From Thermoguttaceae bacterium (GTDB taxonomy: Bacteria > Planctomycetota > Planctomycetia > Pirellulales > Thermoguttaceae): DNA of 64,000 nucleotides. How positions within the stretch are numbered: the stretch's first letter is position 1; every line of letters begins with the position of its first letter. Shown here piece by piece: positions 1 to 64,000 of this stretch. Location: positions 1 through 64,000 of the forward strand of contig JAFRXD010000086.1 of the NCBI GenBank assembly GCA_017441605.1, in the 5' to 3' direction. The notes below the pieces were generated by a model, which ran no database searches, was not told where the DNA came from, and saw only the letters and a list, made by a program, of their open reading frames with translations. The position numbers and the translations under genes were made by a program.

Positions 1-371
1 CGTGTTGACGTCGAGACCGGTGAAGGTGTACGAGGTCTCGGAGGTCGTGTCTTGGATATCGCCCAAGAGAACCGCGTACAGTTCCGCGCCCTCGACCGCG
101 TCCCAAGTTACCGTAATCGAATCGGTCGTCGCCGTGTACGCGAGGTTCGTCGGGGCCGCCAGTTGCGCGTAGTCCTCGGTTTGAACTTCGAGCGTCGCGG
201 CTTCGGAAGCGTAGGCGCCTTCGCCCGTCGCTTGAACCGAGAAGTCGTACGCCGTGTTGACGTCGAGACCGGTGAAGGTGTACGAGGTCTCGGAGGTCGT
301 GTCTTGGATATCGCCCAAGAGAACCGCGTACAGTTCCGCGCCCTCGACCGCGTCCCAAGTTACCGTAATCG
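1..371 (-). repeat. Exact tandem FN3 duplication, 252-bp period
   Basis: Bases 1-119 are repeated base for base at 253-371, an offset of 252 bp (84 codons). The first copy is cut by the window edge. They are consecutive FN3 modules of the partial surface-protein gene, so this is a recent in-frame tandem duplication. Confidence 0.9.
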
Positions 372-2034: not shown

Positions 2035-2430
2035 TAAAAATGTCCCCATATATATGGCGGTTGTTTTGGCTCGCTCTCTCGAACGAACCGAATCGTTAAA
2101 ACGAAGTTACGGAATCTTCCCTACCGCAACTCGTCTCGAAACATATGCGCTCAAAGTCGCGCCGCGACGCGCGCCGCCGACTTTTCGCTTTCCCTGTGAA
2201 AGCGCGCTGGCGTTTTCGCCGCGCTCTCAACTACTAAGCGACTCTGCGAAACGCTCGTATTGCGACTCTACTGAATTTTAAAATTTTTTGCAACGTCGAA
2301 AAGCCCGCGGATTCCAAATTCGGCAAAATTTAAACTTTTTTTGCAATCTTGCTCAGTCTAATCGACTCATTTTGCCTATCTTTAATAATCTGCGCGAGCA
2401 ATTTTATCGACACGACCCAACTTCCTTGTC
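2035..2430. other. Intergenic region with AT-rich block
   Basis: This 396-bp gap separates the oxidoreductase stop from the start of the left-edge surface-protein gene; both are minus-strand. About 2270-2400 is distinctly AT-rich and probably holds promoter signals for the surface gene, but I could not fix a -35/-10 pair. A perfect 12-bp palindrome, CCATATATATGG, lies at 2046-2057, just upstream of the ATG. A 75-codon plus-strand frame at 2054-2281 shows no recognisable protein features. Confidence 0.5.
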
Positions 2431-6714: not shown

Positions 6715-6737
6715 ATCGCAGCGCCAAACTACTCGCG

Positions 6738-18111: not shown

Positions 18112-21100
18112 TTATCTGTTTCTCGAGCGCGCCGCCGATTTTGCGAGCAGATCCCAGAATTCTTCGAGGTCGTCTTCAAAATAGTTTTCAAAGTCCGCGC
18201 CGGACGAGCGGTTCGCGCTTCCGCGCGATTGGGCAAACAACTCGCTCCCGTTGGTCGCTAGACTTTCTTCAAAGAACTCTTGTTCCTCGTCGAGAACGGC
18301 GCTCGAGGTCGTCGCGGGTTTAGTCGTCGCGTCGAAGGTCGTCCACGCGGAGTCGGCAAACCCTTCGGCGATCGCTTTGACGCGGAAAAAGTAGGTCGTT
18401 CCGGAGACCAAGCCGGAGATCGTTTTCGCGCCGGTCGTCGCATAAGTTTTGGTTCCGGCGCCGACGAAGCTCGGATCGGTTCCGTACTCGACGACGTAGG
18501 TCGTCGCGTTTTCTACCGGGTTAAGTCGGAACGTTACCGCCGCTTTGGTGGTCGACACGCTCGTAATCTCGGGCGCGGCGAGGATTTGGACGTCGGGCTT
18601 GGTCTCGGCGACCAGCTCGACCCAGTCGGACTCTCCGAACTCGGTCGAGACGGCTTTCACTCGGAGGTAGTAGGTCGTTCCGGACGCCAAGCCGGAGATC
18701 GTCTTGATTCCGGTGGTTGGGTAGGTCTTGACGCCCGCGCCGACGTAGCTCGGATCGGTTCCGTACTCGACGACGTAACTCGACGCGTTGGCGACGGTTC
18801 CGATCTTAACGACGACGGCGGTCTTGGTCGTCGAGACGCTCGCGGTCGGGGCGTCGATTCCGGTGGTTCTCGCCTCGAGGGTCGCGGACCACTTGGAGTC
18901 GTTGGCGGCGAGGCTCGTCGCTTTAACGCGGACGAAGTAGGTTTGACCGTATGTCAAGCCGGAGATCGTTTGAACGCCCGCGCTCGCGAAGGTCGCGGTT
19001 TCGCAAGTCGCGAAGGTTTCGTCGGTTCCGTACTCGACGACGTACGCGGTCGAGTTGGCGACTTCGGCGATTTCGAGATCGAGCGAAGTATTGGCCGCTT
19101 GCGCGAGCGCGACGGTCGGGGTCGCGAGGGTCGCGCCGCCCGGGATCAGTTTGACGGTCGCGGCGTAGTCGGAATCGGCGTAGCCGGGCGCGGTCGTCTT
19201 GACGCGGACGTAGTAGGTCGCGCCGGTTTGCAAGCCTGAGATCGTCTTCAGCCCGACGCCCGCGTACGATCTGGTCTCACAGGTCGCGAAGTTCGAGTCG
19301 GTTCCGAACTCGACGACGTATTTCGCCGCGTTCTCGACCGGAGTTTCCAGTTTGACGACGATCGCGCTCTTAGTCGCGGTCGCGGTAAAGGTCGGAGCGG
19401 CGAGTTGACCGAGATACGCTTTCGTGGTCGTGGTTTTGACGACGGACCACTTGGAATCGACGCGATTAACGCCGTCGCCGATCGCCTTCGCGCGGAAGTA
19501 GTAGGTCGTTTCCGGATCGAGACCGGAGAGGGACTTGGTTCCGTAGGTCGAGTAGGTCAGGGTCTTCGGGTCGGTAAAGTTCTGATCGGTCGCGTATTGG
19601 AGCGCGTAGCTCGAGGCGTTGGCGACGACGGAAATCGCGAGGTCGAGAGATCCGTAGTTGACGTTCGAGGGCTTGAGGGTCGTCGCGCTCAGCTCGCCCG
19701 CCGCGAACTCGATCGTCGACCGCTTCGAGTCGTTGTAACCGTCCCCGCTCGCCTTGACGCGGAAGTAATAGGTCGTTCCGAACGGCAGGTTGGTAAAGGT
19801 CTTGGCTCCGCCGGTCTGGTAGGTCTTGACGGTCGCGCCGGTAAAATCGGGATCTTGCGAGTATTGCAACTCGTAAGTCGCGGCGCCGTCGACCGCCCTG
19901 ATATTGACGATCACGGCGCTCTTGGTCGCGGAGGCGGAGAGCGTCGGAGCGGCGACGCGCGGGGCGCCCGGGATCGGCGAGGCGGTCGTCCACGCGGAGT
20001 CGTAGAAGTTTTCGCCGGTCGCCTTAACGCGGACGTAGTAGGTCGTTAGGGTCGTCAGTTTCGAGAAGGTCTTCGCCGACCCGATTTGCGAGGAGGCGTA
20101 TTCCTTATGGACGACGCCGGACTCAAAGCTCGGGTCGGTCGAGTACTCCATGACGTAACGGTCGGCGCCCTCGATCGAGAAGATCTTGACGACGATCGCG
20201 GTATTAGTCGTGTCGACGGCAAACTCCGGCGCCTTCAAGGTCGCTTTGTCGGTCGTAACGCTAAGCTCTTTCCAGTTCGAATCTTTGTAACCGCTCGCGG
20301 TCGCTTTGACGCGGAAGTAGTAGGTCGTCGAGGAGAGGAGGCCGCTCGCGGTGAAGTAGCCGGGCTGGGTCGTCGCGGTCTCGTAGGTCGCGAACTCGGG
20401 GTCGGTTCCGTACTGGACCACGTAATCGGTCGCGTTGGCGACGCTTCCGATCTTGACGGTAATCGAGGTCGGCTTGGCGAGCGACTTGATCATGTTCGGG
20501 GTCGCGAGTTGTTCGGAAACGACGTTGGCGTCGTAGCTCCAGTCGACGGAGCAAACGAACTCGCCGCCGGACTCGCCGTCGGTATTGAACGAGGCCGACT
20601 TCAACCCGCGATAAAGATAGACGTTACCGTCGGAGGAACCGACGAGCAGGTCGGCGGCGCCGTCGCCGTCGTAGTCGGTCGCGAAGGGTCGCGAGCGCTT
20701 GGCGGAATTCGGGAGCGCGAGGTCGCCGTCGACGTCGGTCAGGCGAACGGCGCTCTCAAATCTCGGATTGGCGGGGGTTCCGACGTTCAGGAGGGTCCAG
20801 AAGGCGCCGTTAGAGTCCCCCGCGACGATATCGAGCTTGCCGTCGCCGTCGACGTCGGCGAGGGTCGGAGCGGCGCGCCCGGCGCTCAGGACGAGCTCGC
20901 CGGTTCCGTTGGCGCTCGTCAGGGCGAGGGCGTTGCGGAAGTCGAAGAGTCCTTCGGACGCGGAGTCGACGAGAACGTAGAGTTTGCCGTCTCCGGCGCC
21001 GACGAGGAGGTCGTATCGACCGTCGACGTCCCAGTCGCAAACCTCGAAGACGGCGCGGCTTCCGACGCTCAGTTGGGACTTGGCGCCGTCGAGCCCGACG

Positions 21101-34806: not shown

Positions 34807-34863
34807 TGCGTTGGATTTCAAAAGGTCGACGGGGTTAGAAGGGTCGGGGAAACTTGGAACGTT

Positions 34864-39996: not shown

Positions 39997-40061
39997 TTTG
40001 TTCCGCTTTCGTTGCGTCGTCGAACGAGTTTGTTTCGCAAATACCAAAAAGGGGTCTGGTA

Positions 40062-40085
40062 GGAGCGAGCGCCGGGGCTCGCTCC
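40062..40085 (-). terminator. Terminator-like hairpin after the 3869-residue gene
   Basis: A perfect 9-bp stem (GGAGCGAGC/GCTCGCTCC) with a 6-base loop lies 16 bp after the stop. On the minus strand it is followed, after about ten bases, by CCCCTTTTT. Confidence 0.65.
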
Positions 40086-40101
40086 GTATTTCGAGGTCGG
40101 T

Positions 40102-46100: not shown

Positions 46101-49100
46101 CGATGGGACTGGAATTCCAACTGGCGAAAATTCTTTGATTTCCGGCAAAATCGATCGTCGAGCGAACTTTGTCGTTAACGCCGCGATCGATCGCGAGACT
46201 GTTTCGCGCGAGATGGAAATCGACGGAAGAAACGTTGTTCGGTTTCCCATTGGAATCGAAGGTCGGAGGAACGAGGAAGTCGGGGTCGACACCAATAAGA
46301 CTTCCGACGGCGAAATACCCGGAACCTCCGACTTGCGATTCGTATTCGGCTCGATTTAACGCGACGATCGTATTGTAAAAGTAAAAAGTTGACGTTACGT
46401 TCGAGTCAACGCCTCCGCCGCGGGAGGAGGTCGCGTTACCGGAAATCGCGCAGTTATAGAACGCCGCCGTTCCTCTAATAAAGACTCCGCCGCCGTAACT
46501 CGAAGCGTAATTGCCGTAAATCAAGGATCCTTCGAAGGAGTAAGTTTTGCCGGAGACGGAGCCGTAGACTCCGCCGCCGATATAAGTCGCCGTCCCGCCG
46601 CGAATTAAAGAACGCGAAACGTTTAAGTTCGCCGCGGTGTACACGTTGCCTCCATTGTAAGAGGATCCATCGGCGATATCGAGGGCGATCAACGAGGTGT
46701 CCGCGAATATGGCAAAGACTCGGGAAGCGGCGTTGGCGCTTATCGTAATTCCGGGCTTGCCCTCTTGGTAGTCCCAAATGGACGAGGCGTCGATGGCGAC
46801 GGCTTTGTCGACGACGAGGGAAGAACCGCTCAGGGTAATCGTTTTTCCTATTAAAGACGAGGCAAACTCGATAGTCTCGCCGCTCTCGGCAAATAGAATC
46901 GCCTCGCGAAGGGAGATCAACCCGTCGGTATCGTCGACTACGTCTTGATCGGTCGTAACGACGAGGGATTTGGCTTCCGGTGTTTTCGCGACGGCGAGTT
47001 GATACTCGTAGGCGCCGATATCGACGGTCGCGGTCGACTCCCAGCTCTTTTGCTTTCTTGGGTTTCCGTCAAGGTCGCGAGCGTCGGACGGGACGGAGTT
47101 ATCGCCGCGATCGATCGCGACGCTGTTCGCTACGAGTCGGATATCGACCGACTCCGCATTGGTCAAGGCTCCGTTCGACCCGAAGACGGGCGCGACGACA
47201 AACCCGGGATCGATTCCTATTAAATTATGGTTCGACGAGGGATCCAACGGACCGTAAATGTCTTCGAAGCCCTGGCGTCCGCTCCGATTGAGCGCGACGA
47301 TCGAATTCTGGAAAAGAGGAGAATACGACTCGGCATAGAGACCTCCACCGTAGTTGCCAGCGTAGTTCCCGGCAACGGTGCAATTCGCAAAAGTCCCCGA
47401 ATTGAAGGAAGAAACGTAAATGGCTCCGCCATAGTCGGAAGCGACATTTCCGACAAAGGAACAATTAATGAAGTTGAAGTTTTTCTGAGAATTGTAAAGA
47501 TAAAGGGCGCCTCCGTAATAACCGGAGTTGCCGACAAACTCGCAAGCCTTCGCGACAAGATTCCCCGAAGAATAAATGGCGCCTCCGTAATAACCGGAGT
47601 TACCGGAGAACCTAGAGCGAGTCAGCTCGGCGTCGCAGTAAGAAAGATAGTACCCTCCTCCATAGTAATTCGTCGTCGTCTTATTCCCAACGACTTCGCA
47701 ATCTGTCGTTTTAAGCGAGCCGTAGTAAGCGTAACATCCACCGCCATAGTACTTCGCAATGTTATCGGAAAGGGAGCAGTTAACGAGTTCGCCGTTCGCG
47801 TACGATAAATACAGCCCTCCGCCATTGTTCGTCGCATTGTTGCCGAACACGACGCAATCTTTGAGGAACAGATCATTGTTAGCGTAAATCCCGCCGCCAT
47901 TGTAACCGTTTCCTCCGGTTATCGTTAGTCCGATTAGGGACGCCTTCGTGGAGACGTTAAAGACGCGAGAGGCGCCGTTTCCGCTAATCGCGATTCCCGG
48001 GGCGTCGCTCGTCGCGTCCCAGAGATTGGAGGCGTCGATGGTAATCGATTTATTTACGGAGAGTTCCGTTCCGCCCAGGGTAATAGTCTCGCCTTTTAGG
48101 GAGGAGTGGAAGGTAACGGTATCGCCGTCTTGGGCGTTGGCTAGGGCGTACCGGAGGGAGCCTTGGGTCGTCGCGGAGTCCTCGGTCGTCGTAACGAGGA
48201 GCCTTGCGATCGAGGGATCGTATTCGCAGGGACCTAGGTCGACGACGCCGTTTCCAATTCTTTGAGCGCCGCGCAAGTCGGTATCGACCTCGACATAGGA
48301 GTTGTTTCCTTTGTCGATCGCTTGGGAGTTTTCGGCGAGGCGATAGTCTCCGCCGTTCGGGTCGACGAACAACGGCAACGATTCGTCGTAGCGGTAGTTG
48401 ACGACCCAGGAGGTCGAGGCGTTCGCCCAAGAGTCGAACGAGGAAAGGGACCTGAGGGCGACGACGGAACCGTCGACTTCGGGATTGGTCGGGGCTTCGT
48501 TGTCGACGATGATCGAATTGTAAAACGCCAATTCCCCGGTAACTTCTTGCAGCGCGCCTCCGCCGGAATTGGACGCCACATTATCGACAATGGCGCAGTT
48601 CGTAAAATCGCCAAGTGGGGCGGTCGTTCTGGTCGAGTTAGAATAAGAATAGACGCCGCCGCCTTTAGGAGAGGCATTTTCGGCAATGAGACAATTTTTG
48701 AACAGGGCTACTCCGTCCCAATACAAAGCGCAACCACCCCCGCTGTTATTGGTCTCGTTCCTCAGAATTTCGCAGTTCACAAAACAACTAGTTCCGCCGG
48801 TAACGGCGATTCCGCCACCCTTTAATCCGTCAAACGTCTTGTACGGATCTCTATTTGAGGCGTTATACGAGATGCGACAACGCTCAAAGTATCCCGTAGA
48901 ACCGATTTGAACGTAAACGCCACCGCCCCAGCTTCCTGCCTCGTTACGCGAGATATCGCAATCAACGACCGTTGCGTTTCCATTGCAAACGCGGATCGCC
49001 CCGCCTCCGCCGGGTTTATAGGCGTTTCCAGCCTCGCTTACGATCGAAATAGCTTGATTTCCGGTAAAACTACATCCCTCGAAGGTCGCGATTCCCTCGA

Positions 49101-51711: not shown

Positions 51712-51772
51712 AGGTTCGGTTTTTCTTAAAGGGGATTGCGAGGGTAAAAGGGGGGAAAACGAAAAGGCTCGA

Positions 51773-54700
51773 CTACGGTCGGACGGCGGCTTCGGCGAGC
51801 AGATCCCAGAACTCTTCGAGCTCCTCGAACTCGTCGAGGCAGGCGTCGTCGAAGGGGGACTCGGCGTCGAGGACGGCGCTCGAGGCGGGGGGCGTCGTCG
51901 CGGCGGTAAAGCGAACGGGGACGGAATCGTCGTAACCCGGGGCGGTCGAGCGGAGGCGGAAGTAGTAGGTCGCGCCAGATTGCAACCCCGTAATGGTTTT
52001 GGAACCGGCGGTCGCGTAGACTTTCGTCGAGTAGGTCGTGAAGTTCGGATCGAGTCCGAAGTCGAGAACGTACTTTGTCGCGCTCGGGACGGCGGCGAAC
52101 TTAACGACGATCGAGGTCTTGACCATCGTAAAGGAAACGGAGGGCGCGGCGAGCTCGCCTTGATAGGAGACCGTGCTCTTGACGAGGGTCGAGGTCCAGG
52201 CGGAATCGCAACGGTTCGTTCCGTCTCCCAAGGCTTTGGCGCGGAAGTAGTAGGTCGAGTTTTCGTCGAGCCCGGCGATCGTCTTGGCGCCAAAGGTCGA
52301 GAAGGAAACAAGGGTCGAGTCGGAGAAATCGGGGCTCTTGGAGTATTCGATCGCGCATCCGACGGCGTTGGGGACGCTCGTTACGGAAAATTCGACGCGG
52401 TCGTAGTTTACGCCTGTCGATTTGAGGGTCGTCGAGGCAAGCTGGCCCGCCGCGAAGGAGATCTCGGACCACTTCGAGTCGTTGACGCCCTCGCCGATCG
52501 CTTTAACGCGGAAGTAGTAAGGGGTTCCGAACGGGGCTTTGGTAAAGGTTTTCGGACCGCTCGTTTTATAGGTCTTCGCGACCGCGTCGGAGAAGTCGGG
52601 ATTCAAGCCGTATTCGAGGACGTATTGGTCGGCGTCGTCGACCGGTTTAATATTGACGACGACGGCGGTTTTGGTCGCCGAAGCGGAGAGATTGGGCGCG
52701 GTTAAGGTAAGTCCGCCGGGAATCAGGGTCAGGGTCGAGCTCGGGGAATCGTCGAGTCCCTCGGCGACGGCGCGAACGCGGACGTAGTACGGAGTTCCAG
52801 TCTCAAGCCCCGAGAAGGTCTTCGGTTGCGCGACGGAAGTATAAGTCTTCGTTTTGCAAGTCGCGAAGGTCGGGTCGGTTCCGTACTCGAGCACGTAGCG
52901 CTCCGCCCATTCGACTGGATAAATCTTAACGACAATCGCGGTTTTGGTCGTCGAACCGGCGATTTCGGGCGCGGCGAGGATCTTAACGACGGGAACGGGG
53001 GCGGAAAACTCGAGGGAATAGGGAGTCGAGTCGCCGGACGCGAGGTAGTTAAAGGCGCGAACGAAGTAGGTTCCGGCGGGAAGCGCCTCGATAGAAATCG
53101 TTTCGACGCCGGTCGTTTCACGGGAGGCGGCGACGAGCGCGCCGTTCGCGTCGTAGAGCTCCAAGTCGACGTCGACGGTCGCGCTTTGGGGGTAGGTCAA
53201 TTTAACGAGGCGCCCTTCTCCGTCGGGATCGCTCAGAACGAACTTGAACCAGTCGACGTCGGTTCCGTCGTGCAACGTGAGATCGCAACGCGATTCCCCG
53301 GAAAGGGTTCCGAGATTGGTCGCGGCTTCGATGGAATCGTTCGGCTCGAACAGGTCGCGCTCTCCCGAGGTCGAGAGAACGAGCTCCGACCAGACGGAGT
53401 CGACGAGCCCGTCGGCGATCGCTTTGACGCGAAGCCAATAGGACGTCTCGGGGGTCAGTCCGTCGATCGCGAAAACGCCGTTTCCAACTAAGGTTAGGGA
53501 GTTCTCAAAGGTCGGGTCGGTTCCGTATTCGACGACGAATTGAGTCGCGTTGGGAACGTCGGTCGCGACGAGGACGATCGATTTATCGGAAACGGTCGCG
53601 GCGAGAATCGGTCGATCGAGTGTTCCTTCCGGCAGGCTCGCGGGGGGCGCGAACCGGAAGGAATAACGCCCGGTCGCGGGGGACGCGCTTCGGTTGTAAA
53701 CCCTTAGGCGATAGGCTCCGGCGAGGAGATTGGCGAGGCTTAGCTCGTCGACGTCGCCGGAGCGCTCGGAACCGGCGACGAGACGCCCTTCGGAGTCGTA
53801 AAGGAGGAGACCGAGGGCGAAGCGGTCGGCGTCGTAATCGTAAAGGGCGCGAACAACGTTCTCTTCGCCTCCGTTGGCGACGATCGCGAAGGAATACCAG
53901 TCCTCGTCTGTTTCGGAGTGGAATGTGAATCCGGTAAATTCGGCGGACTCGGAAAGGGTTCCGAGGGAGCGACTCGCGTCGATCGAATCGTTGGGCTCGC
54001 AGTAATCGCGGGGGATCGTCGTGGTTTCGTCGAATTCGAACCAGGCGGACTCGCGGGCGTCGGCGACCGCTTTGACGCGGCAGTAGATCCGGACGCCCTC
54101 GGGCAAGTTGTCGAGGGTTTTAACGCCCGAGGTCGCGTAGGTTTTAGTCGAGGCGTTTTCGTAGCCGGGGTCGGTTCCGAACTCGAGAACGTAGGTCTCG
54201 GCGCCATCGACTTCGGTCAAGTCGACGTCGAAGGAGTTTCGATTAATCTCGAGAATCGTCGCGATCGGGGCGTCGAGGGCGTTTTCCTCGGGGGCGAGGA
54301 TCGCGAGCTCGTAATCGACGACGCCGGGTCTCGGGGAGGCGTTATAGACGCGGAGCCAGTAGTCGCCGGGTCGGAATTTCGCGAGGGAAATCGTTTCGAC
54401 GTCGGAGGTTCCGTTGGCGAGGGCGACGCGCTCCCCTTGCGAGTCGAAGAGCTCCATATCGAGGTCGGCGCCGATCGTTTCGGAGAAGGTCAGGCGAATC
54501 TCGCGGTCGGAACCGCAGGTCGCGGCGAGGGAGAATTTGAACCAGTCGACGTCGGAGTCGGAATGGAGGTTCAAGGCGCGCGTCGACTCGCCGAAAACGG
54601 TTCCCAGATCGAACGCTTCGTCCAACGCGTCGTTCGGCTCGCAGGCGTCGCGCGGGGCGTCGGTCTTAACGGAGATCGCGGTCCATTCGGACTCCGCGGC

Positions 54701-57700
54701 GAGTTCGTCGTTGGGAAGAGGCGCGTCGCCCTCGTCGAACAAGGGCGCGGAATCGATCGGGGTTCCGCCAAGGGCCTTAACGCGAACGTAGTAGAGGGTC
54801 GAGGGCGCGAGCCCGGCGAGGGTCTTGGCGCCGGGGGAGTCGAAAACGCGCTCCGAGGCGCCGGTAAAGTCGGGGTTCGTCCCGTACTGCGCGACGTATT
54901 GGCTCGCGCCGGGCACTTCGGCGATATCGACGACGACGCTGGAGTCGGAGGGCGCGGCGTCAAAGACGGGGCGGTCCAACTCGCCTTCTCGCAAGGGCGC
55001 GGGAGGCGCGATCGTCAGCGCGCAATCGCCGGGTTTGGCGGTCGAGCGAACGTTCGCGATTCTGACGTAGTACTCGCCGGCGGGCAGGTTCTCCAGGCTA
55101 ATTTCCTCGACGCCGGTCGGTCCCTTCGAGGTCGCGACACGAGCCCCGCTCGCGTCGTAAAGCTCGAGCGCGACGTCGATTCCGTCGGTCGCTTTGGCGT
55201 ATTCGACGCGAACGAAGTTCCCGGCGCCGCCGTTGGCGACGGTCGAGAATTTGAACAAATCGACGTCGGACGCCGAGTGCAAATTGATTTGGAGAGTCGT
55301 CGCGTCGCAGATAGCGCCCAAATCGGTCGCGAAAGGCGTCGAGTCGTTCGGCTCGTAGGCGTCGGGCAGGACGTCGGTCGTCGACTCCCAAGCGGCGGAT
55401 TCGCCGTAAGTTCCGACGTAGTCCCTGGTCCAAACGGAGGAGACGCGACCGAGCGCCTCGGCGCGAACGCGAACGTAGAGGGTAACGTCGGAGGGGATTT
55501 GCTCAATCGCGCAAGAGCCGGCGGAGTCGCGCGTTATCGAGGAGCTCGCGGCGAAGGTCGGATCGGTTCCGTACTCGATCGCGTATCGCGAGGCGTCCTC
55601 CGAGGCGCCAATTTCGAGCAGAACGCTAGCGCCGTCGCGGGCGACCGAAAGGGACGGCGGAGCGAGACGCCCCTCGGAAGAGGTTTCGTAAGCGCCAAGA
55701 TCGACGACGTTTTGAACGCGCGCGTTGCCGTCGAGATCGACGAGGACGCCGCTCGGGAGGAGCTCGTCGTCGCCGCGATCGACGAGCTGACCGTCGAGCG
55801 CGGGTCGGTAGTCGCCTCCCTCGAAATCGGCGAAGATGGGGTCGTTCGGCGCGTAGGGATAATTCTCGACGCCCGACTCGCTCGCGTTCGACCATTCGGC
55901 GAAGGAGGAGAGGGAGTTGCGACCGTTAACGACGGTTTCGGACGTCCTGGCAAGGTCGTCCCCTTCGTCGCCGTTGAGGGCGACGACGCAGTTGTCGAGG
56001 GCGAAAAGGTCGCGCGTTCCGCGTCCGTAGAAGCGCGCGCCGTCGCCGTCGTCGAACGCGTTGGAAGAGAGCGCGGTAGCCTCGGCGGAGTTGGCGACGA
56101 TCGAGGCGTTGACGAGTGTCAGCCCGAAATCGCCGCAGACGCCGCCACCTTGGGCAAAGGCGGAGTCTTGGTTCCGAATCGTTCCGTAAGAGGTCGCTTC
56201 GACTAAGTTTCCGGAGATTTCGACGTTGGTCGCGACGACCGAGGCGAGGGCGGCGTTGGAATAGAGCCCGCCCCCTCTGGCGTTGGCTTCCCGTCCGGAG
56301 ATCGCCTCGACGTCGTTGCCAAAGAGGGCGCAGTTCGTTATGGAGACGTTGGCGGCGGAGTTTCGCGAGGCGTCGACGCAAACGCCGCCCCCTTGGGCGG
56401 TAACGGAGACGCTCGGATTGACGGCTTTGGCGGAGTTGGCGAAGATTCTGGACTCAAGGATCGTGGAAGGACCGCCGAGATAGAGCCCGCCGCCCTCGGC
56501 GCGCGCGGAGGTTTCGGCGACGTTGTCGCGAATTTCGACGTTACTCGCGGTCAGTTTTCCGATCGAGTAAACGCCGCCGCCGGATCCGGAGTAATTGCCG
56601 ACGACCAAGGAGTTTCCGTCGATCGTAAGCTCGCCCTCGGAGCAAAGGCCGCCGCCGAAGGAATTGGATTTGTTCGTTTGAACGACGGACTCGTTCGAGA
56701 CGAGAACGACGCCTTGGGAGTAAACGCCCCCGCCTTGGTGTTTCGCGTAGTTATTGGAGACGTCGGACGAGTTTACGACGAGCGAGCCGTTTTCGGCGAC
56801 GAACGCGCCGCCGCCGAAGGAGCGCGAGAAGCTGGCGGCAAAGTCGTTCGGCATATAGAATTCCGACGTATTTAGCCTTATGGAACTATCGACGACGACC
56901 GCGGTTCCGGAGCTCGCGACGTAGATTCCGGCGCCGAAGGAATATGCAAGGTTTTGGGTCTTCGCCTCGGTCTTGTTCTTGGCGACGACGCTGGAAATCA
57001 ACGCGAGATCGGCGCCGACGTAAATCCCGCCGCCAAAGACGTAGGCGGTCGAGACGCTTTCGGCGGTCGAGGCGGCGTTGTCGCGAACGACGGTCTCCGC
57101 GAGGGTCAGATCGCCTAGGGCGCAAATCCCCGCGCCGCGAACGGTCGTCGAGTTTTGTTCGCTCCACGCGGCGTTTTCTGCGACGACGCAACGCGTTAGT
57201 TCGGCGGCGTAATTCTCGGCGACGAGGACGCCGCCCCCCTGCTCCGCTTTTCCGCCGGTAATACTAAGCGCCACAAGGGTCGCGTCGGCGTCGATATTGA
57301 AGACGCGAGACTTGGAGTCGGCGTTGATCGCAATCCCGGGGACGGAGTCGGCGTCGTTCCAAACGGCGGAGGCGTCGATCGTTATCGCCTTGTCGACGAT
57401 CAGCTCGCCGTTGACGAGAAGGATCGTTTGCCCGGCGAGCTCGGGGGCGAACCGGACGACGTCGCCGTCTTTCGCCTTGGCGAGGGCGCGGCGCAGGGAG
57501 CCGGTCGTCGCGTAGGAGTCCTCGACGTTGGTAACGAGCAACGGGTCGAGGGTGGCGACGCTCGCGATGGTCCAGTCGGAGTCGATATAGTTCGCCGCGG
57601 TCGCTTTGACGCGGACGTAGAATTGGGTCGCCTCGGGGAGATCGCTCAAAACGACGGTTCCCGCGCTCGAAGTCGTTCTCGTCGAAGCGTTGGCAAACTC

Positions 57701-60700
57701 CGGATTCGTCGCGTATTCAAGGACGTAGCTTTCGGCGCTCGGGACTACGGAAACGGTGACGGAGATCTCGGTCTCGGTCGCGACGACGGCAACGGTCGGG
57801 GCGTCGAGTTTGACGGCGAGGGTGGTCGCGGTCGCTTCGGTCCATTCGGAATCGTCGAACCCGTCGGCGGTCGCTTTGACGCGGAAGTAGTACTCGGTAT
57901 TGGGGTTCAAGCTCGCGATTTGGACTTCGCCCGAAGCGGAGAAGGTTGCGGTCGAGGAGTTCTCGTAGGTCTCGGACGTCGAGTATTCGACGACGTAACT
58001 CGTCGCGTCGGCGACGGCGCCGATCGAGAGGATCGCGGAATTATCGGTGGCGGCTAGGACGGTAAGGGTCGGGGCGTCGAGCGCGGCAAGGTCGGTCGTC
58101 GTGGACGTCTCGAGCCAGTCGGAATCGGCGAGCCCTTCGGCGGTCGCTTTGACGCGCAGGTAATAGGTCGTTCCCGGAATTAGATCGGTTATCGATTTCG
58201 TCCCGGCCGAGGCGTAGACATTCGTTTGGCAATCGGCGAAAGTCGAGTCGGTAGCGTATTCCACGACGTAATTTTGGGCGGAATCGACGCCGACGATCTC
58301 GAAGCTCAGCGCGTTCGCGGTCGAGGTAAGATCGGAAACGGTCGGAACGGGAAGCGCGGTTTTTACGGAAGTCGTCTCGGACCAATCGGAATCGACGTTA
58401 ATATCGCTAGTCGCCTTGACGCGGAAATAGTATTGAGTCAGGGGATCGAGATCGGAAATGTTCGCGGTTCTTCCTCTGACGGTCGTTCTCGAGAACGTCG
58501 CAAAGTCGGGATCGGTTCCGTATTCAATGATATTGTAGTAGCCGTAATTATTTATCGTTAAGACGACGGAGGAACTAGTCGGCGTCGCGGTAACGACGGG
58601 CGCGGAGAGAGCGCCCTCGGGATTGAGACAGGTCGTTCCGACGAGTTCTCCGTCTTTCATATAACGGAACGAGCCCCTTGGACAAGTATCGCCGTCATCA
58701 TAATTCTCGACAAAGTGGGCGTCGATAGTAAAACGGAAAAAACCGCCACTTTTTTCAACCGGGTCCACCCCCTCCCAGCAATCCCAAACAATTAAATCAT
58801 CGTACTCCTCCGATTCCGCGACATTTACGTAAAGATCCGGATACTCCCACCTAAGGTACTCTTCGTTATATTCGCAAGTAGGGTAAAGGTAGAGGTCCGA
58901 AATCGATTTGAGGACGGGACCGTCGATATATATCGTCCGAGAATATTCGGATCCGCACCATTTCAGGGACGAAATATTATTGGAATAGCAACTTAGATTC
59001 CTTAAGTAACCCAGCGCGGAAAGATCCAACTCGGTCAAAGAATTATTCGAACAGTCAAGGCTTTGTAAATAGCTTCCTTTCGAGACGTCGAGCGACGTAA
59101 GATTCATACCGGAGCAATCAAGAGACACAAGAACTCCCGCCTGATAATCCACTCCGTTGTAAATAACGTCTCGTTCGGTCCATTCGACTCGCGGACTCGA
59201 CGGTTCAATTCCCAAGGATTGAAGTAGAGCCAGATCGGCGGCGCGATAGCGAGTCGTGGCGGCTGTCAGGGTCGTCCAATCGGAGGCGTCTCCCCCCTCG
59301 CGGATCGCTTGGACACGCCAATAATAGGCGGTATCTCGGGTTAAAGAGTAAATTTCGACAACGCCGGCTTCGGCAAAACTCTTTTGACGGACGCCGGTCG
59401 CAAAATTCGGATCTTTCGAGTATTCGAGAACGTAACCGTCCGCGCCGTCAACTTCGCCAATTTCGAGCGAAATCGCGTCAAAATCGGCGGAAACAAGGGT
59501 CAACGCGGGAGTTTCTAGCGCTATCAAAGTCTCGGCGGTCAGATCGGTCCAGTCGGACCCGGTTTCTCCGTCGGTCGCTTTGACGCGCAGGTAGTAGGTC
59601 GTTTCGGGATCCAATCCCCCGAGGACGAGCTCGCCCGAGGCGAGGACATTGAGCGTTTCGCAATTCTCGTAGTTCTCGTCGGTTCCGTATTCTAGGACGT
59701 AGGAGGTAGCGCCGTCGACTTCGCCGATTGCGACGGTTAGGGAGTTCGCGGTCGCGGAGGTTAGAGCGAGGGTCGGAGAGGGCAAAGAGGCCTCGTACGT
59801 CTGAGAAATCGTCGTGCTCCCCACTTGAGCGCCGTCTCGATAATAAACGACCGATATAGGAAAGGCGGCGTCGGGCGCGACGGTAAATCCCCAACGTCTA
59901 TAATCCGTTTTATAGGTCGCTTGGATCGCTAAGCCGTTCCCGTCGACAACTTCAAGCGAATCCCACTCGTTCAAAATTGGAATTTCAACGTTTACGTCGA
60001 CTCCTCCCCGCAACGAAATCGTTTCGATAGAAGAAACGAAATACAGGTCGTTCAATTCGGCATTGCCGGAAAGATCCAACTCCTCTACCGAACTTAAATA
60101 GCAGAAAAGAGTCTTCAAATTAGGAGAATAAGACGCGTCGAATTCGGACAAACTGCCGCCGAAAACTCGGAGATCCTCTAGAAGAGCGCAATTGGAAAAA
60201 TCGAGACTCGCAATACTCTCTCCGCAATACAACGTTTGTAAATACGGACAATTAGAAACGTCAAGATCGGTTAGGGGATTACCTTGGCAATAAAGTAAAC
60301 TCAAATTCTCGCAGTTGGAAACGTCCAGTTCGTCGAGAAGATTGTTATGACAATACAGCCAAGTCAGTCTTCCACACCCGGAGACATTAAGTTCCTCGAG
60401 ACTATTGTAGCAACAATCCAACCACTCTAAATTCGGGCAATTTGAAAGCTCAATGGAAGTCAACTGGTTAGAACTACAAGTCAACGTTCGCAAATCAACG
60501 CAGCCGGAAACGTTCAGCGTTGTAAGACCTAAACGCGAGCAACTCAAACTAACAAGTCGTCCCTCGTCGTTCCATTCGACGCCGTCGCTCTCGGCGGTCA
60601 AGCCGAGAGCCTCGACGACCGCCAAGTCGCCCTCGTCGTAGTCGCCGACGGCGGAGCTCAACTTGTCCAGCCCCAAGACGTTCGGCTCGGGAGCGTTTTC

Positions 60701-60877
60701 GGAGACGACGCCCCAGTTTCCGGACGTCGCGAGGAGCCCTTCGGGGGTCGCGCTCAAGAGCTGTCGCTCTTCCAGCGACTCCAAACGCAAAGTTCGCGTT
60801 TTAGGCGATTTCGCTTTCAAGGAAACAATTTTGCGGCTTCGTTGGAAAAGGTCTTTGGTAAAGTTCTTGCGAGTCAT
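51773..60877 (-). CDS. Giant surface protein with LRR, beta-helix and four PPC domains (3034 aa)
   Basis: Start at ATG 60875-60877 (MTRKNFTKDLF) by alignment with paralogues; a TTG five codons upstream is possible. LESLEERQLLSATPEGL (motif at residues 32-43) is identical to that of the 5564-residue protein. Then come: LRR block (~93-290), two FN3, a second short LRR block (~546-746), four FN3, a beta-helix region (~1113-1730), and alternating FN3 and PPC domains (PPC at ~1836, 2076, 2295 and 2511, each with EPNDS and HSxxDxDxFKF-type text and a LPAGxYxxR strand). Four final FN3 modules precede ELEEFWDLLAEAAVRP. It lacks a hydrophobic signal peptide. The repeated PPC domains resemble those on secreted peptidases, but no protease domain is present. 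Probably a surface or matrix protein. Confidence 0.9.
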   Translation of the reverse strand: MTRKNFTKDLFQRSRKIVSLKAKSPKTRTLRLESLEERQLLSATPEGLLATSGNWGVVSENAPEPNVLGLDKLSSAVGDYDEGDLAVVEALGLTAESDGVEWNDEGRLVSLSCSRLGLTTLNVSGCVDLRTLTCSSNQLTSIELSNCPNLEWLDCCYNSLEELNVSGCGRLTWLYCHNNLLDELDVSNCENLSLLYCQGNPLTDLDVSNCPYLQTLYCGESIASLDFSNCALLEDLRVFGGSLSEFDASYSPNLKTLFCYLSSVEELDLSGNAELNDLYFVSSIETISLRGGVDVNVEIPILNEWDSLEVVDGNGLAIQATYKTDYRRWGFTVAPDAAFPISVVYYRDGAQVGSTTISQTYEASLPSPTLALTSATANSLTVAIGEVDGATSYVLEYGTDENYENCETLNVLASGELVLGGLDPETTYYLRVKATDGETGSDWTDLTAETLIALETPALTLVSADFDAISLEIGEVDGADGYVLEYSKDPNFATGVRQKSFAEAGVVEIYSLTRDTAYYWRVQAIREGGDASDWTTLTAATTRYRAADLALLQSLGIEPSSPRVEWTERDVIYNGVDYQAGVLVSLDCSGMNLTSLDVSKGSYLQSLDCSNNSLTELDLSALGYLRNLSCYSNNISSLKWCGSEYSRTIYIDGPVLKSISDLYLYPTCEYNEEYLRWEYPDLYVNVAESEEYDDLIVWDCWEGVDPVEKSGGFFRFTIDAHFVENYDDGDTCPRGSFRYMKDGELVGTTCLNPEGALSAPVVTATPTSSSVVLTINNYGYYNIIEYGTDPDFATFSRTTVRGRTANISDLDPLTQYYFRVKATSDINVDSDWSETTSVKTALPVPTVSDLTSTANALSFEIVGVDSAQNYVVEYATDSTFADCQTNVYASAGTKSITDLIPGTTYYLRVKATAEGLADSDWLETSTTTDLAALDAPTLTVLAATDNSAILSIGAVADATSYVVEYSTSETYENSSTATFSASGEVQIASLNPNTEYYFRVKATADGFDDSEWTEATATTLAVKLDAPTVAVVATETEISVTVSVVPSAESYVLEYATNPEFANASTRTTSSAGTVVLSDLPEATQFYVRVKATAANYIDSDWTIASVATLDPLLVTNVEDSYATTGSLRRALAKAKDGDVVRFAPELAGQTILLVNGELIVDKAITIDASAVWNDADSVPGIAINADSKSRVFNIDADATLVALSITGGKAEQGGGVLVAENYAAELTRCVVAENAAWSEQNSTTVRGAGICALGDLTLAETVVRDNAASTAESVSTAYVFGGGIYVGADLALISSVVAKNKTEAKTQNLAYSFGAGIYVASSGTAVVVDSSIRLNTSEFYMPNDFAASFSRSFGGGAFVAENGSLVVNSSDVSNNYAKHQGGGVYSQGVVLVSNESVVQTNKSNSFGGGLCSEGELTIDGNSLVVGNYSGSGGGVYSIGKLTASNVEIRDNVAETSARAEGGGLYLGGPSTILESRIFANSAKAVNPSVSVTAQGGGVCVDASRNSAANVSITNCALFGNDVEAISGREANARGGGLYSNAALASVVATNVEISGNLVEATSYGTIRNQDSAFAQGGGVCGDFGLTLVNASIVANSAEATALSSNAFDDGDGARFYGRGTRDLFALDNCVVALNGDEGDDLARTSETVVNGRNSLSSFAEWSNASESGVENYPYAPNDPIFADFEGGDYRPALDGQLVDRGDDELLPSGVLVDLDGNARVQNVVDLGAYETSSEGRLAPPSLSVARDGASVLLEIGASEDASRYAIEYGTDPTFAASSSITRDSAGSCAIEQIPSDVTLYVRVRAEALGRVSSVWTRDYVGTYGESAAWESTTDVLPDAYEPNDSTPFATDLGAICDATTLQINLHSASDVDLFKFSTVANGGAGNFVRVEYAKATDGIDVALELYDASGARVATSKGPTGVEEISLENLPAGEYYVRIANVRSTAKPGDCALTIAPPAPLREGELDRPVFDAAPSDSSVVVDIAEVPGASQYVAQYGTNPDFTGASERVFDSPGAKTLAGLAPSTLYYVRVKALGGTPIDSAPLFDEGDAPLPNDELAAESEWTAISVKTDAPRDACEPNDALDEAFDLGTVFGESTRALNLHSDSDVDWFKFSLAATCGSDREIRLTFSETIGADLDMELFDSQGERVALANGTSDVETISLAKFRPGDYWLRVYNASPRPGVVDYELAILAPEENALDAPIATILEINRNSFDVDLTEVDGAETYVLEFGTDPGYENASTKTYATSGVKTLDNLPEGVRIYCRVKAVADARESAWFEFDETTTIPRDYCEPNDSIDASRSLGTLSESAEFTGFTFHSETDEDWYSFAIVANGGEENVVRALYDYDADRFALGLLLYDSEGRLVAGSERSGDVDELSLANLLAGAYRLRVYNRSASPATGRYSFRFAPPASLPEGTLDRPILAATVSDKSIVLVATDVPNATQFVVEYGTDPTFENSLTLVGNGVFAIDGLTPETSYWLRVKAIADGLVDSVWSELVLSTSGERDLFEPNDSIEAATNLGTLSGESRCDLTLHDGTDVDWFKFVLSDPDGEGRLVKLTYPQSATVDVDLELYDANGALVAASRETTGVETISIEALPAGTYFVRAFNYLASGDSTPYSLEFSAPVPVVKILAAPEIAGSTTKTAIVVKIYPVEWAERYVLEYGTDPTFATCKTKTYTSVAQPKTFSGLETGTPYYVRVRAVAEGLDDSPSSTLTLIPGGLTLTAPNLSASATKTAVVVNIKPVDDADQYVLEYGLNPDFSDAVAKTYKTSGPKTFTKAPFGTPYYFRVKAIGEGVNDSKWSEISFAAGQLASTTLKSTGVNYDRVEFSVTSVPNAVGCAIEYSKSPDFSDSTLVSFSTFGAKTIAGLDENSTYYFRAKALGDGTNRCDSAWTSTLVKSTVSYQGELAAPSVSFTMVKTSIVVKFAAVPSATKYVLDFGLDPNFTTYSTKVYATAGSKTITGLQSGATYYFRLRSTAPGYDDSVPVRFTAATTPPASSAVLDAESPFDDACLDEFEELEEFWDLLAEAAVRP
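52990..55370 (-). repeat. Four PPC domains alternating with FN3
   Basis: PPC-like units at about 54.99-55.37, 54.29-54.65, 53.64-53.99 and 52.99-53.35 kb, separated by single FN3 modules. All have an EPND start, a D(V/E)DW(F/Y)-like core and a YxxRxxN-like end. Confidence 0.82.
60010..60600 (-). repeat. Leucine-rich repeat block
   Basis: About eight to nine 20-21-residue units, such as LTSIELSNCPNLEWLDC, LDELDVSNCENLSLLYC and LTDLDVSNCPYLQTLYC. They are more diverged from one another than the units at 30370-31330. A cap segment VEALGLTAESDGVEWNDEG precedes them. Confidence 0.85.
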
Positions 60878-60937
60878 TGTTTTGGCTTTCAAAACGCGGC
60901 GTTTGGAGTCGGAAGTATTTTGGTGGCGGAGCGATGG

Positions 60938-60973
60938 CGGGAGCGGGTTCGCTATTGGAAACGCGCGCTCCCG
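60938..60973 (-). other. Hairpin between two giant genes
   Basis: An 8-bp perfect stem (CGGGAGCG/CGCTCCCG) with a 20-base loop lies in the 127-bp gap after the right-edge gene. No T-run follows on the minus strand, so termination is uncertain. Confidence 0.4.
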
Positions 60974-61004
60974 GACGGATTAGAGACGACGGTTTTGGCG
61001 AAAG

Positions 61005-64000
61005 TTATCGCTTGTTGGAGCGGGACTTCGCGAGGGAATTGGCCAGGGCGTCGAGGGAGTCGTCGAGCTCGAGGTCGAAGGGATCCTCAAAGGAGTCGTC
61101 CAGAATCGCGCTCGAGGTCGCGGCGGTCGTCTTCGCGGTCAGGGTCGTCCAAGAGGACTCCCCTTGCGAGCTCGAGGTCGCCTTGACGCGGAAGTAGTAG
61201 GTCGTTCCGGAAGTTAGCCCGGAGATCGTCTTGACGCCGGAGCTCGGGTAGGTTTTGGTCGAGCTCGACGCGAAAGAGGAGTCGGTTCCGTACTCGACGA
61301 GGTAGGACTCGGCGCCGTCGACCGATCCGATATTGAGAACGACGGCGGACTTGGTAACGGAGGCGGAGACGCTCGGGGCGGCGAGGCCGGTCGTTCGGGC
61401 TTGGAACACGTTCCAGTCGGAATCGGCGGAGCCGGTCGCGGTCGACTTGACGCGGAAGTAGTAGGTCGTTCCGGAAGCGAGCCCGGAGACGGTTTTGGTT
61501 CCAGAACTCGCGTAAGTCTTGGTCGCGCAATTGGCGAAGGACGGGTCGGTTCCGTATTCGAGGACGTACTTTTCGGCGCCGTCGACCGGGTTGATCTTAA
61601 CGACGATCGCGGTCTTCGAGGGAGTGACGGAAACGTTCGGAGGCACGAGGCTCGCGGCGGTCGTCGTCGCGGAGGCGGAGGTCCATGGCGAGTCGAGGTA
61701 ATTCGCGGCGGTCGCCTTAACGCGAACGTAGTAAGTTGTTCCGGGGATTAGGTCGGCGAGCGAGAGCGCGCCGGACGAGGAGAGGGGAACGCTCGTCGCG
61801 GAGGAGAAATTCGGAGAGGTTCCGTATTCGAGAACGTATCGAGTCGCGTTCGGAACGGCGCCAATAACGAGGTCGAGCTCGGTCGAGTTGGCGGAACAGG
61901 AGAGGGTCGGAGCGTTTAGCGCGGGAGCGCTCTCCTTCGTGGTCGCGCTAAAGGAGGTCGACCAATTGGAGTCGACGCGCGAGACGTTGTCGCCCAGGGC
62001 TCTCGCGGAGAAGTAGTACTTCGTCTTCGGGGTCAAACCTTCGACGCGGCAACTACTCGTCGCGCCGCAGGTCGCGTATTGAGCGTTGGAGAAATCGGGG
62101 CTCGTCGAGTAGCGAACTTCGTATCCGGAGGCGTTTGCGGAGTTGTAGCTCTTGACGACGACGAAATCGGAGCCGACGCTCGTCGCGTAAGTCTTTGGCG
62201 TCGCGAGCTGTCCGGCGGAATAACTAAGGACGTTCCACATCGAGTCGTTGGCGGTCGAGCCGGTCGCTTTGACGCGGAAGTAGTACTTGGTCGCGAAGGT
62301 AAGCCCGGAAATCGTTTTCACGCCGGCGGTAAAGGTCTTCGTCCTCGCGTTGGAGAAGTCCTCGTTTTCGCTATACTCGACGACGTAGCGCTCGGCGCCC
62401 GCGACCTCTTTGATATTGAGGATCACGGAGGTTTTCACGGCGGAGGCGGAAACGGCGGGCATCGCGAGTTGTCCGCCGGTGTAGATCTTGGACTTAACGC
62501 AGTACTCGGAATCGGCGCGCCCGGTCGCGGTCGCTTTGGCGCGGACGTAGTACCAGGTTCCGGAAGTCAAGCCGGAAATTGTTTTAACGCCGGAACTCGA
62601 GTAGGTCTTGGTCGAGAAGGTCGCGAAGTTGGCGTCCGTCGAGTACTCGACGACGTACTTTTGCGCGTCGTCGACGGGGTTGATCTTAACGACGACGGCG
62701 GTTTTGGTTCCGGAGAGGGAAATTGCCGGCGCGTCGAGGGGATCGCCGAGCTCGGGCTGGGTCGCGACGGAGATCGAGGTCCAGGCGGAGTCGGCGTAGC
62801 CGGTCGCGGTCGCTTTGACGCGAACGTAGTAGGTCGAGTCGGGGTCGAGGTTGGAGATAACGAACGACCCGGCGGCGGAGCGCGTTGCGGACGACGCGCC
62901 GGAGAAGTTGGCGTTTTTGCCGTACTCGACGACGTATTTCGCGGCGTTGGCGACCGAGCCGATCGTTACGGTAAGAGAATCGGAGGTCGCGGCGGTCGCG
63001 ACAAGGGTCGGAGACGCGAGGGTTTGAACGTCTTGAAGGGTCGTCGCCTCGCGGGCGGTCCACGGAGAGTCTTGATAGCCGGAGGCGGTCGCTTTGACGC
63101 GCAGGTAGTAGGTCGTTCCGGAAGCGAGCCCGGAGAGCGTCTTGGCGCCGGAGGAGGAATAGATTTTGGTCGTCGCTTCGGCGTAAGAGGGGCTTTCGCT
63201 ATATTCTAGGATGTACCCGGTCGCGTTGGAGACCGCGCCGATATTGACGACGAGGCTCGTTTTGTTGGCGGTAATCGCGACGGACGGGGCGGCCAAGGTT
63301 TGGGAGTCGGCTTTGGTGGTCGCCTCGAGGCTGGTCCACGTGGAGTCGGCGTACCCGGAGGCGGTCGCTTTGACGCGCAAATAGTAGGTCGTGCCGGAGG
63401 CGAGCCCGGAGATCGTCTTGGCGCCGGCGGATGTATAGTTTTTAATCGTGTATTCGTCGAAAGTTGGGTCGTCGCTATACTCCAAGACGTACGCGGTCGC
63501 GTTCTCGACGGCGCCGATATTGGCGACGATCGCGGTCTTGGTAGTAGAGACGCTAACGGTCGGAGCGACGAGGGTCTGGACGTCTGGCGTTGTGGTCGCC
63601 TCGAGGCTGGTCCACGGGGAGTCGGCGTATCCGGAGGCGGTCGCTTTGACGCGCAGGTAGTAGGTCGTTCCGGGATCTAGTCCGGAGATCGTCTTGGTTC
63701 CGGCGGAGGTATAGTTCTTAATCGTGTATTCGTCGAAGGTTGGGTCGTCGCTATATTCTAAGACGTAGGCGGTCGCGTTCTCGACGGCGCCGATTTTGGC
63801 GACGATCGCGGTCTTGGTAACGGATACGCTAACGGTCGGCGCGGCGAGGGTCTGGACGTCGGAGTTCGTGGTCGCCTCGGCGGAGGTCCACGGGGAGTCT
63901 TGGTAGCCGGAGGCGGTCGCTTTGACGCGCAGGTAGTAGGTCGTTCCGGAGGATAGCCCGGAGATCGTCTTGGTTCCGGCGGAAGCATAGGTCTTGATCG
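61005..64000 (-). CDS. Giant FN3-repeat surface protein, 3' part (runs off the right edge)
   Basis: The frame is open from the right edge to the stop at 61005, so the last 998 residues are seen; the N-terminus lies outside. An internal ATG at 63485 falls inside an FN3 repeat and is not the start. The visible part is almost wholly FN3: about eleven modules of ~90 residues with VVEYGTDPSF, KTISGL and TTYYLRVKATASGY text. The four at the right edge repeat every 276 bp with nearly identical DNA. The C-terminus is FDLELDDSLDALANSLAKSR plus basic residues, matching the tail of the 3869-residue protein. The last ~540 codons are a near copy of that gene. Probably a surface adhesin of the same family; whether it has the LEPR-XLL-like N-terminus is unknown. 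Confidence 0.9.
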   Translation of the reverse strand, partial: IKTYASAGTKTISGLSSGTTYYLRVKATASGYQDSPWTSAEATTNSDVQTLAAPTVSVSVTKTAIVAKIGAVENATAYVLEYSDDPTFDEYTIKNYTSAGTKTISGLDPGTTYYLRVKATASGYADSPWTSLEATTTPDVQTLVAPTVSVSTTKTAIVANIGAVENATAYVLEYSDDPTFDEYTIKNYTSAGAKTISGLASGTTYYLRVKATASGYADSTWTSLEATTKADSQTLAAPSVAITANKTSLVVNIGAVSNATGYILEYSESPSYAEATTKIYSSSGAKTLSGLASGTTYYLRVKATASGYQDSPWTAREATTLQDVQTLASPTLVATAATSDSLTVTIGSVANAAKYVVEYGKNANFSGASSATRSAAGSFVISNLDPDSTYYVRVKATATGYADSAWTSISVATQPELGDPLDAPAISLSGTKTAVVVKINPVDDAQKYVVEYSTDANFATFSTKTYSSSGVKTISGLTSGTWYYVRAKATATGRADSEYCVKSKIYTGGQLAMPAVSASAVKTSVILNIKEVAGAERYVVEYSENEDFSNARTKTFTAGVKTISGLTFATKYYFRVKATGSTANDSMWNVLSYSAGQLATPKTYATSVGSDFVVVKSYNSANASGYEVRYSTSPDFSNAQYATCGATSSCRVEGLTPKTKYYFSARALGDNVSRVDSNWSTSFSATTKESAPALNAPTLSCSANSTELDLVIGAVPNATRYVLEYGTSPNFSSATSVPLSSSGALSLADLIPGTTYYVRVKATAANYLDSPWTSASATTTAASLVPPNVSVTPSKTAIVVKINPVDGAEKYVLEYGTDPSFANCATKTYASSGTKTVSGLASGTTYYFRVKSTATGSADSDWNVFQARTTGLAAPSVSASVTKSAVVLNIGSVDGAESYLVEYGTDSSFASSSTKTYPSSGVKTISGLTSGTTYYFRVKATSSSQGESSWTTLTAKTTAATSSAILDDSFEDPFDLELDDSLDALANSLAKSRSNKR
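61119..62737 (-). repeat. Duplicated C-terminal FN3 cassette, copy 2
   Basis: Partner of 40252-41870 with no net insertion or deletion across the checked points. The sequence beyond it at the 3' end differs by small indels but keeps the same tail motif. Confidence 0.88.
63085..64000 (-). repeat. Tandem FN3 repeats, 276-bp period
   Basis: The landmark GCGGTCGCTTTGACGCGC recurs at 63085, 63361, 63637 and 63913, exactly 276 bp (92 codons) apart, within highly similar flanks. The array continues past the edge. Confidence 0.92.

Follow-up and report, generated by a model that had tools for sequence, protein, structure and literature searches.

The window analysed here, the initial 64 kb of the 69,214-bp contig C47, carries a row of genes for giant modular proteins that resemble one another at both ends, differ in their middles and have no Sec-type signal. 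How are such proteins exported, and which of the two shared ends would be read by the export machinery?

The giant gene cluster

The genome is incomplete (3.93 Mb in 98 contigs, 82% complete). The nearest named relatives of its exporter genes, described below, belong to MAGs of Planctomycetia and Thermoguttaceae, of which several derive from ruminant guts. The initial annotation described five adjacent giant genes on one strand; all five (g1 to g5) were found at the same positions and with the same lengths, on the minus strand with intergenic gaps of 57–127 bp (Table 1). The ATG codons of g1, g2, g3 and g4 are at 34806, 39996, 51711 and 60877, respectively. Only 998 aa of g5 lie in the window, and the gene is complete on contig C47 with its ATG at C47:68801. 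The middles of these proteins consist of beta-helix/POMP and choice-of-anchor Q repeats, leucine-rich repeats (LRR) and Fn3 arrays.

Table 1. Features of the giant gene cluster (window coordinates, except where prefixed C47)
Feature	Coordinates	Strand	Description
g0	1..2049	-	sixth LEPR-XLL gene; 683 aa seen, LRR + Fn3; 3' end lost at contig start
g0 LEPR-XLL-like motif	1915..1974	-	RLETLEDRQLLS; N-terminal profile, E 5.6e-6
g1	18112..34806	-	5564-aa modular protein: choice-of-anchor Q, CSLREA, LRR, Fn3
g1 LEPR-XLL-like N-terminal motif	34660..34734	-	profile E 2.6e-15
g1 C-terminal tail	18115..18228	-	ADFENYFEDDLEEFWDLLAKSAARSRNR; tail profile E 2.3e-16
g2	34864..39996	-	1710-aa modular protein: beta-helix/POMP repeats, Fn3
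g2 LEPR-XLL-like N-terminal motif	39925..39996	-	profile E 1.7e-12
g2 C-terminal tail	34867..34974	-	LEDDSDEFWSLLARSATPRD; tail profile E 5.3e-11
g3	40102..51711	-	3869-aa modular protein
g3 LEPR-XLL-like N-terminal motif	51565..51639	-	profile E 1.9e-14
g3 variant tail	40105..40212	-	LELGDSLDALARSLVSSREEKR; no tail-profile match; 16/22 identical to g5 tail
g4	51773..60877	-	3034-aa modular protein: LRR, POMP repeat, Fn3
g4 LEPR-XLL-like N-terminal motif	60743..60817	-	profile E 2.6e-15
g4 C-terminal tail	51776..51889	-	LEEFWDLLAEAAVRP; tail profile E 6.8e-13
g5	61005..64000	-	3' part of 2598-aa Fn3-array protein
g5 LEPR motif	C47:68658-68735	-	outside window; N-terminus TRKLRLESLEDRRLLS
g5 variant tail	61008..61124	-	SSAILDDSFEDPFDLELDDSLDALANSLAKSRSNKR; tail profile E 0.019; short-tail profile E 0.004

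The N-terminal motif

At the N-termini of g1 to g5, LExLExRxLLSA or a near variant of it comes after a short segment that is basic in most of the proteins. The pattern L-E-x-L-E-x-R-x-L-L is present in the initial ~60 residues of g1 to g5 and of g0. It had been recognized on the four genes that are complete in the window, which we confirm; because contig C47 completes g5, all five and not four proteins bear it. This core, its N-terminal position and its occurrence on very large modular proteins are shared with the families PF07595 and NF012209 (LEPR-XLL, Planctomycete extracellular motif). Unlike those families, the present proteins have no P before R, carry a C-terminal partner motif and score below the curated cut-offs (21.4–22.0 against 25.5 bits, and 13.6 against 17 bits). 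Since the motif is the same but the score is sub-threshold, we refer to it as LEPR-XLL-like.

A profile of the five N-termini detects approximately 60 LEPR-XLL ORFs genome-wide (the longest of 8047 aa), some of them clustered on C13 and C47; such ORFs are present in 20/20 genus genomes. Mean pairwise identity is 0.66 in the LEPR segment and 0.23–0.24 after it, and the initial 45 aa are basic (mean charge +4.2). The absence of a Sec-type signal, claimed earlier, is borne out: g1 to g5 show no N-terminal hydrophobic segment, with a best 19-residue Kyte-Doolittle mean of 0.7–1.1 in the first 100 aa. In Tuwongella, which has 52 LEPR-XLL genes, 20 of the proteins were detected, 8 of them in the SDS fraction only (PMC8567305). 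Our giants appear to be surface-type proteins, for which an extracellular location is predicted.

The C-terminal tail

The tail has the consensus SSAxLDxDSxFENYFxDELxxFWDVLAxSxxK and the end form ...FENYFEDELDEFWDVLAKSIAK-COOH. Within this genome, a profile search bears out the link between tail and LEPR-XLL proteins that the initial annotation had suggested: a profile built from 21 tails gives 33 matches at E<=0.02, and 27 of them sit at the C-terminus of an ORF that also has the LEPR motif. The remainder comprises two matches that look like frame-broken ends of upstream LEPR ORFs (on C14 and C16), two that are truncated where a contig ends (C4, C21) and two short fragments without LEPR (C93:40240, C77:34461). 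The claim of a related C-terminal motif in all five clustered proteins stands for g1, g2 and g4; g5 is matched weakly, and g3 is missed by the profile (Table 1). We count g3 with the tail group because its end resembles that of g5, both following LELxDSLDALAxSLxxSRxxKR in the last 22 residues.

In 17/21 proteins the core [FIL]W[DENS][LV]L lies exactly 10 residues from the C-terminus, and it occurs nowhere else in the 121,369 aa of these proteins. Mean pairwise identity over the last 22 aa is 0.54, against 0.27–0.30 in three upstream windows. Given this drop, mere membership in a terminal Fn3 repeat was rejected as the sole reason for the shared tail. Tail codons have a pS of 0.56 and a pN of 0.21 (pN/pS ~0.37), the pattern that old copies under purifying selection would show. 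Both ends are thus kept while the middles diverge, given that identity is high at the ends and low in the adjoining segments and that pN in the tail is lower than pS.

Two representative tails of this genome returned no matches in NCBIfam or Pfam at E<=10, curated C-terminal signal models included. As in PEP-CTERM, LPXTG and the T9SS CTD, a short conserved C-terminus is found on unrelated middles; here, however, it is an acidic soluble segment lacking a transmembrane helix or sorting box. The long tail is amphipathic when drawn as a helix (mean moment 0.44 versus 0.23 for shuffles), and a model of the g1 C-terminus has a beta domain with a low-confidence helix across the tail.

Many tail genes are clustered on C13, C29 and C47. 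No recurrent transporter was seen beside tail clusters when ~300 kb of flanks were read by eye (C13, C29, C62, C16, C26, C77, C93, C46, C67, C56, C53 and C14).

Several tails are interrupted. At C93:72779-72880 (L117), a tail match has an in-frame TAG straight after ...DDELEGF, where others have FW, and this protein thus stops short of the tail core. Tails also end early nearby, on C2 and at C93:11655. At C14:99875-103288 and C16:69381-73982, the frame of the LEPR gene is broken ahead of the tail, which continues in another frame (assembly error or pseudogene).

Range of the tail and other C-termini

In this genome, roughly one in two LEPR-XLL proteins has no long tail. Some of these have a short form such as SGALLDDAFADEDFLIGLEF, and others end in basic strings. 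A third C-terminal class, found on three LEPR proteins (C16:63106, C29:24575 and C36:114539; L034, L086 and L081), is tryptophan-rich (RDWWSWWW, GYDWGFWRW, RSWDWWF) and preceded by a DPED/DRD-rich stretch.

Outside its own species, the long tail gives single weak matches only (59 relatives; 296 genomes of the order). Among 80 LEPR ORFs read from the genus genomes, judged for the short tail where the C-terminus was available, a part carries a shorter relative, SSALLDEAFADFFEEEL or SxALLDEAFADFFEEEL, at the extreme C-terminus. A profile of this short tail has 12–22 matches in genomes G007, G014 and G017, few or none in other congeners, and none beyond the genus in the order sample. The short tail is not amphipathic as a helix, so the helix model fits the long form at best. 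With the long tail private to one species, the short tail restricted to the genus and LEPR present in all genus genomes, the C-terminal tag appears young and clade-specific and the N-terminal tag old. Judged from sequence, the tail is a true second motif, clade-specific and not a fixed partner of LEPR-XLL. Absent from Pfam and NCBIfam, the motif changes between species of one genus, so that the divergence of a putative sorting tag could be followed.

A giant gene might also have been duplicated and its middle shuffled in this species, the last piece being carried along without any sorting function. Restriction of the long tail to one species and its clusters on C13, C29 and C47 are what such a recent expansion would leave behind, but we regard this explanation as unlikely: the tail is twice as similar among paralogues as the sequence just ahead of it, its pN/pS is low at a high pS, its core keeps a fixed distance from the stop codon, and a related C-terminal motif is found on the LEPR proteins of congeners.

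The HlyD/M50/SecA module in planctomycetes

Contig C39 encodes a conserved set of three proteins side by side, a GAF-HlyD (685 aa), an HlyD (433 aa) and an M50-HlyD (757 aa) (L261:7282-13078). The trio matches the "type-I-like" HlyD/M50/secondary-SecA module of Kamneva, Poudel and Ward, who left its biological role unknown (2015; PMC4452313). A second SecA_DEAD protein is also encoded in this genome (C90:42623, 663-aa frame), and each of the 20 genus genomes has at least two SecA_DEAD matches, in two main forms of ~1265 and ~663 aa. The second SecA was not found in the trio locus, lying instead on another contig among unrelated genes, as it does in G015, G018 and G001; the 2015 paper likewise reports secondary SecA away from the HlyD/M50 locus (PMC4452313). 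Our reading differs from the published module in this separate location of SecA and in proposing LEPR-XLL giants as cargo and a RiPP recognition element (RRE) as their reader.

HlyD of the type I secretion system (T1SS) type (TIGR01843) is under the cut-off in 20/20 genus genomes (best 39 bits versus 209), and T1SS was rejected as the main route on this basis.

In planctomycetes, a LEPR gene lies within 10 kb of M50-HlyD at only 3/80 loci. Because the genes are dispersed, the link between giants and module in this phylum rests on homology and co-occurrence; such dispersal would be expected of a single machine with many substrates. M50-HlyD is present in 10/12 LEPR-positive genomes versus 57/282 others (Fisher p 1e-5, in a test that ignores shared ancestry and with a phylum LEPR profile that is insensitive far from the genus).

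The N-terminal domain of M50-HlyD

M50-HlyD proteins of Planctomycetes and Proteobacteria are colinear over their whole length and keep the HExxH site. Their first 100 residues match Pfam PqqD in 23/25 planctomycete members at E<=0.1 (best 1.6e-5), many of these matches falling under Pfam's cut-off. In an AlphaFold model of the domain (pLDDT 85.6), the secondary-structure elements follow the bbb-aaa order by which RREs are defined (PMC12710340), and the top Foldseek matches are TbiB1 and TfuB1 with bound leader peptides (probability 0.99–1.00, with E-values of only 0.004–0.07). The M50-HlyD N-terminus is thus predicted to adopt an RRE/PqqD winged-helix fold. Leader peptides are the ligands of RREs (PMC12710340), so that this domain would naturally be expected to bind the LEPR leader. 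It would differ from PqqD, TbiB1 and TfuB1 in being fused to an M50 protease and HlyD, and in having as its proposed ligand the leader of a giant protein and not a RiPP precursor.

LEPR giants beside the module in Proteobacteria

Proteobacterial loci were reached by tblastn of plasmids with M50-HlyD. (Secondary SecA was also tried as a plasmid probe and discarded, as it returned mostly ordinary SecA.) In these operons, a giant gene adjoins genes for HlyD and M50, often with a SecA-like gene, HlyD and TolC. At 12/14 plasmid loci, the gene adjoining the module encodes a giant with a LEPRxLL/LEPRxMFD N-terminus: Pontibrevibacter, Pseudosulfitobacter, Thalassospira, Methylosinus, Alisedimentitalea, Azospirillum, Niveispirillum, Burkholderia, Mesorhizobium, Cupriavidus, Sinorhizobium and Indioceanicola. 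No LEPR giant is next door in Phyllobacterium and Magnetospirillum. The count leaves out two loci (L303, L304) in which the N-terminus of the giant is beyond the available stretch. Annotators already name a giant LEPR-XLL protein in Pontibrevibacter, Pseudosulfitobacter and Thalassospira; the N-termini of the remaining giants read LEPRVLLNAD, LEPRLLLAAD, LEPRFMFDAA, LEPRMMFDAA, LEPRVVYDAS, LEPRLLLSAD, LEPRLLYDAA, LEPRYLLSAD and LEPRVMFDAA. The motif is upstream of the annotated start in Alisedimentitalea; in Azospirillum, the gene bearing it is a DUF4347 gene that immediately precedes the giant gene and overlaps it by 4 bp. These loci contain 522 ORFs of 250 aa or longer; only four of them have a LEPR motif near the start, and all four are module-adjoining giants (the N-termini of the remaining giants were read from separately retrieved sequences). 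Annotated SecA is missing from several loci, so the SecA-like ATPase is not universal. The tail is absent from the proteobacterial LEPR giants. Among open-access papers, we found none linking LEPR-XLL to the HlyD/M50 module.

These loci bear on two further explanations. In the first, the tail would be a type I secretion C-terminal signal for an ABC exporter, with the LEPR end used for retention only, in the fashion of LapA-like adhesins. It would account for the extreme C-terminal position, acidity and helical amphipathicity of the tail, for acidic giants with no hydrophobic signal segment, and for the RTX domains of a Vibrio LEPR-XLL giant (PMC10868602). We nevertheless hold it to be quite unlikely, as proteobacterial LEPR giants adjoin the HlyD/M50 module and end without a tail, and as T1SS-type HlyD is under the family cut-off in all 20 genus genomes searched with the HlyD model. 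Giant-adhesin T1SS (LapA/RTX, HlyB-HlyD-TolC) are alike in that their cargo is giant, acidic, adhesin-like and devoid of a Sec-type signal, and in their HlyD/TolC-type parts and C-terminal tag, but here no T1SS-type HlyD exceeds its cut-off and the machine-linked signal is N-terminal. The exporter is most likely distinct from the classical T1SS.

In the second, the giants would take the general Sec route guided by an unusual signal within their basic N-terminal segment, leaving the HlyD/M50 module to other cargo. The basic first 45 aa are compatible with this, and the R. baltica motif was originally termed an export signal peptide (Studholme 2004, as cited in PMC8567305). The lack of a hydrophobic core, and the fact that in Proteobacteria the genes for LEPR giants are tightly linked to those of the module, make this very unlikely in our estimation.

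A proposed export route

We think it probable, from sequence and gene neighbourhood, that the LEPR-XLL-like leader addresses the giants to a dedicated RRE-M50-HlyD exporter and that the tail, as a second signal specific to the clade, serves in sorting or retention. The exporter would comprise a fusion of RRE/PqqD, M50 (site-2 protease) and HlyD, further HlyD adaptors (one GAF-fused in planctomycetes), a SecA-like ATPase and a TolC-type channel. The RRE domain of M50-HlyD would first bind the LEPR leader, as its fold and gene neighbourhood suggest. Powered by the SecA-like ATPase, the M50/HlyD complex may then translocate the unfolded chain across the envelope, and the M50 site could cleave the leader. 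The chain would exit N-terminus first and the tail would emerge last, whereupon, as a clade-specific signal, it may retain the protein or pass it to the surface. We infer for the tail a role in export, retention or assembly.

The initial annotation had proposed a dedicated route recognizing both ends. The dedicated route is upheld for the N-terminal tag by the LEPR giants beside the module in Proteobacteria. The same cannot be said of one machine recognizing both ends: the evidence for this amounts to co-occurrence, because the tail is limited to a species or genus and is absent from proteobacterial giants and from about half of this genome's own LEPR proteins.

In a broader form, which we rate as an even chance, Planctomycetota and Proteobacteria would share a distinct secretion system with LEPR-XLL as its leader, read by an RRE-site-2 protease-HlyD protein, and each clade would add a C-terminal tag that decides what becomes of the giants at the surface. 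Two questions, the export of planctomycete giants without a Sec-type signal and the cargo of the 2015 module, would then be joined as one leader-reader pair. This pair is testable, and ready operons for the purpose exist in Alphaproteobacteria.

Other features of the loci

At four proteobacterial loci (L301, L305, L306 and L316), a small DUF3467 gene, possibly for a chaperone, separates the gene of the LEPR giant from those for HlyD and M50. At L325 (NZ_CP123586.1), the annotated start of a giant calcium-binding protein is downstream of the LEPR motif, and the leader is absent from the record.

Three other minus-strand genes of the window were noted. Directly downstream of the giant gene cluster is a DUF5703/GH95-like glycosidase (15730-18024). 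An Hsp70-like protein of 1029 aa with DUF3731 is encoded at 3715-6804. The 407-aa ORF at 2431-3654 matches GFO_IDH_MocA over its first half and, weakly, ExbD over its last third (fusion or misread start). Elsewhere in the genome, an ORF of 1091 aa on C16 (L269:10030-13305), with the N-terminus MSDSPMKYILGLDLGVGSVGWAV, appears by eye to be Cas9.
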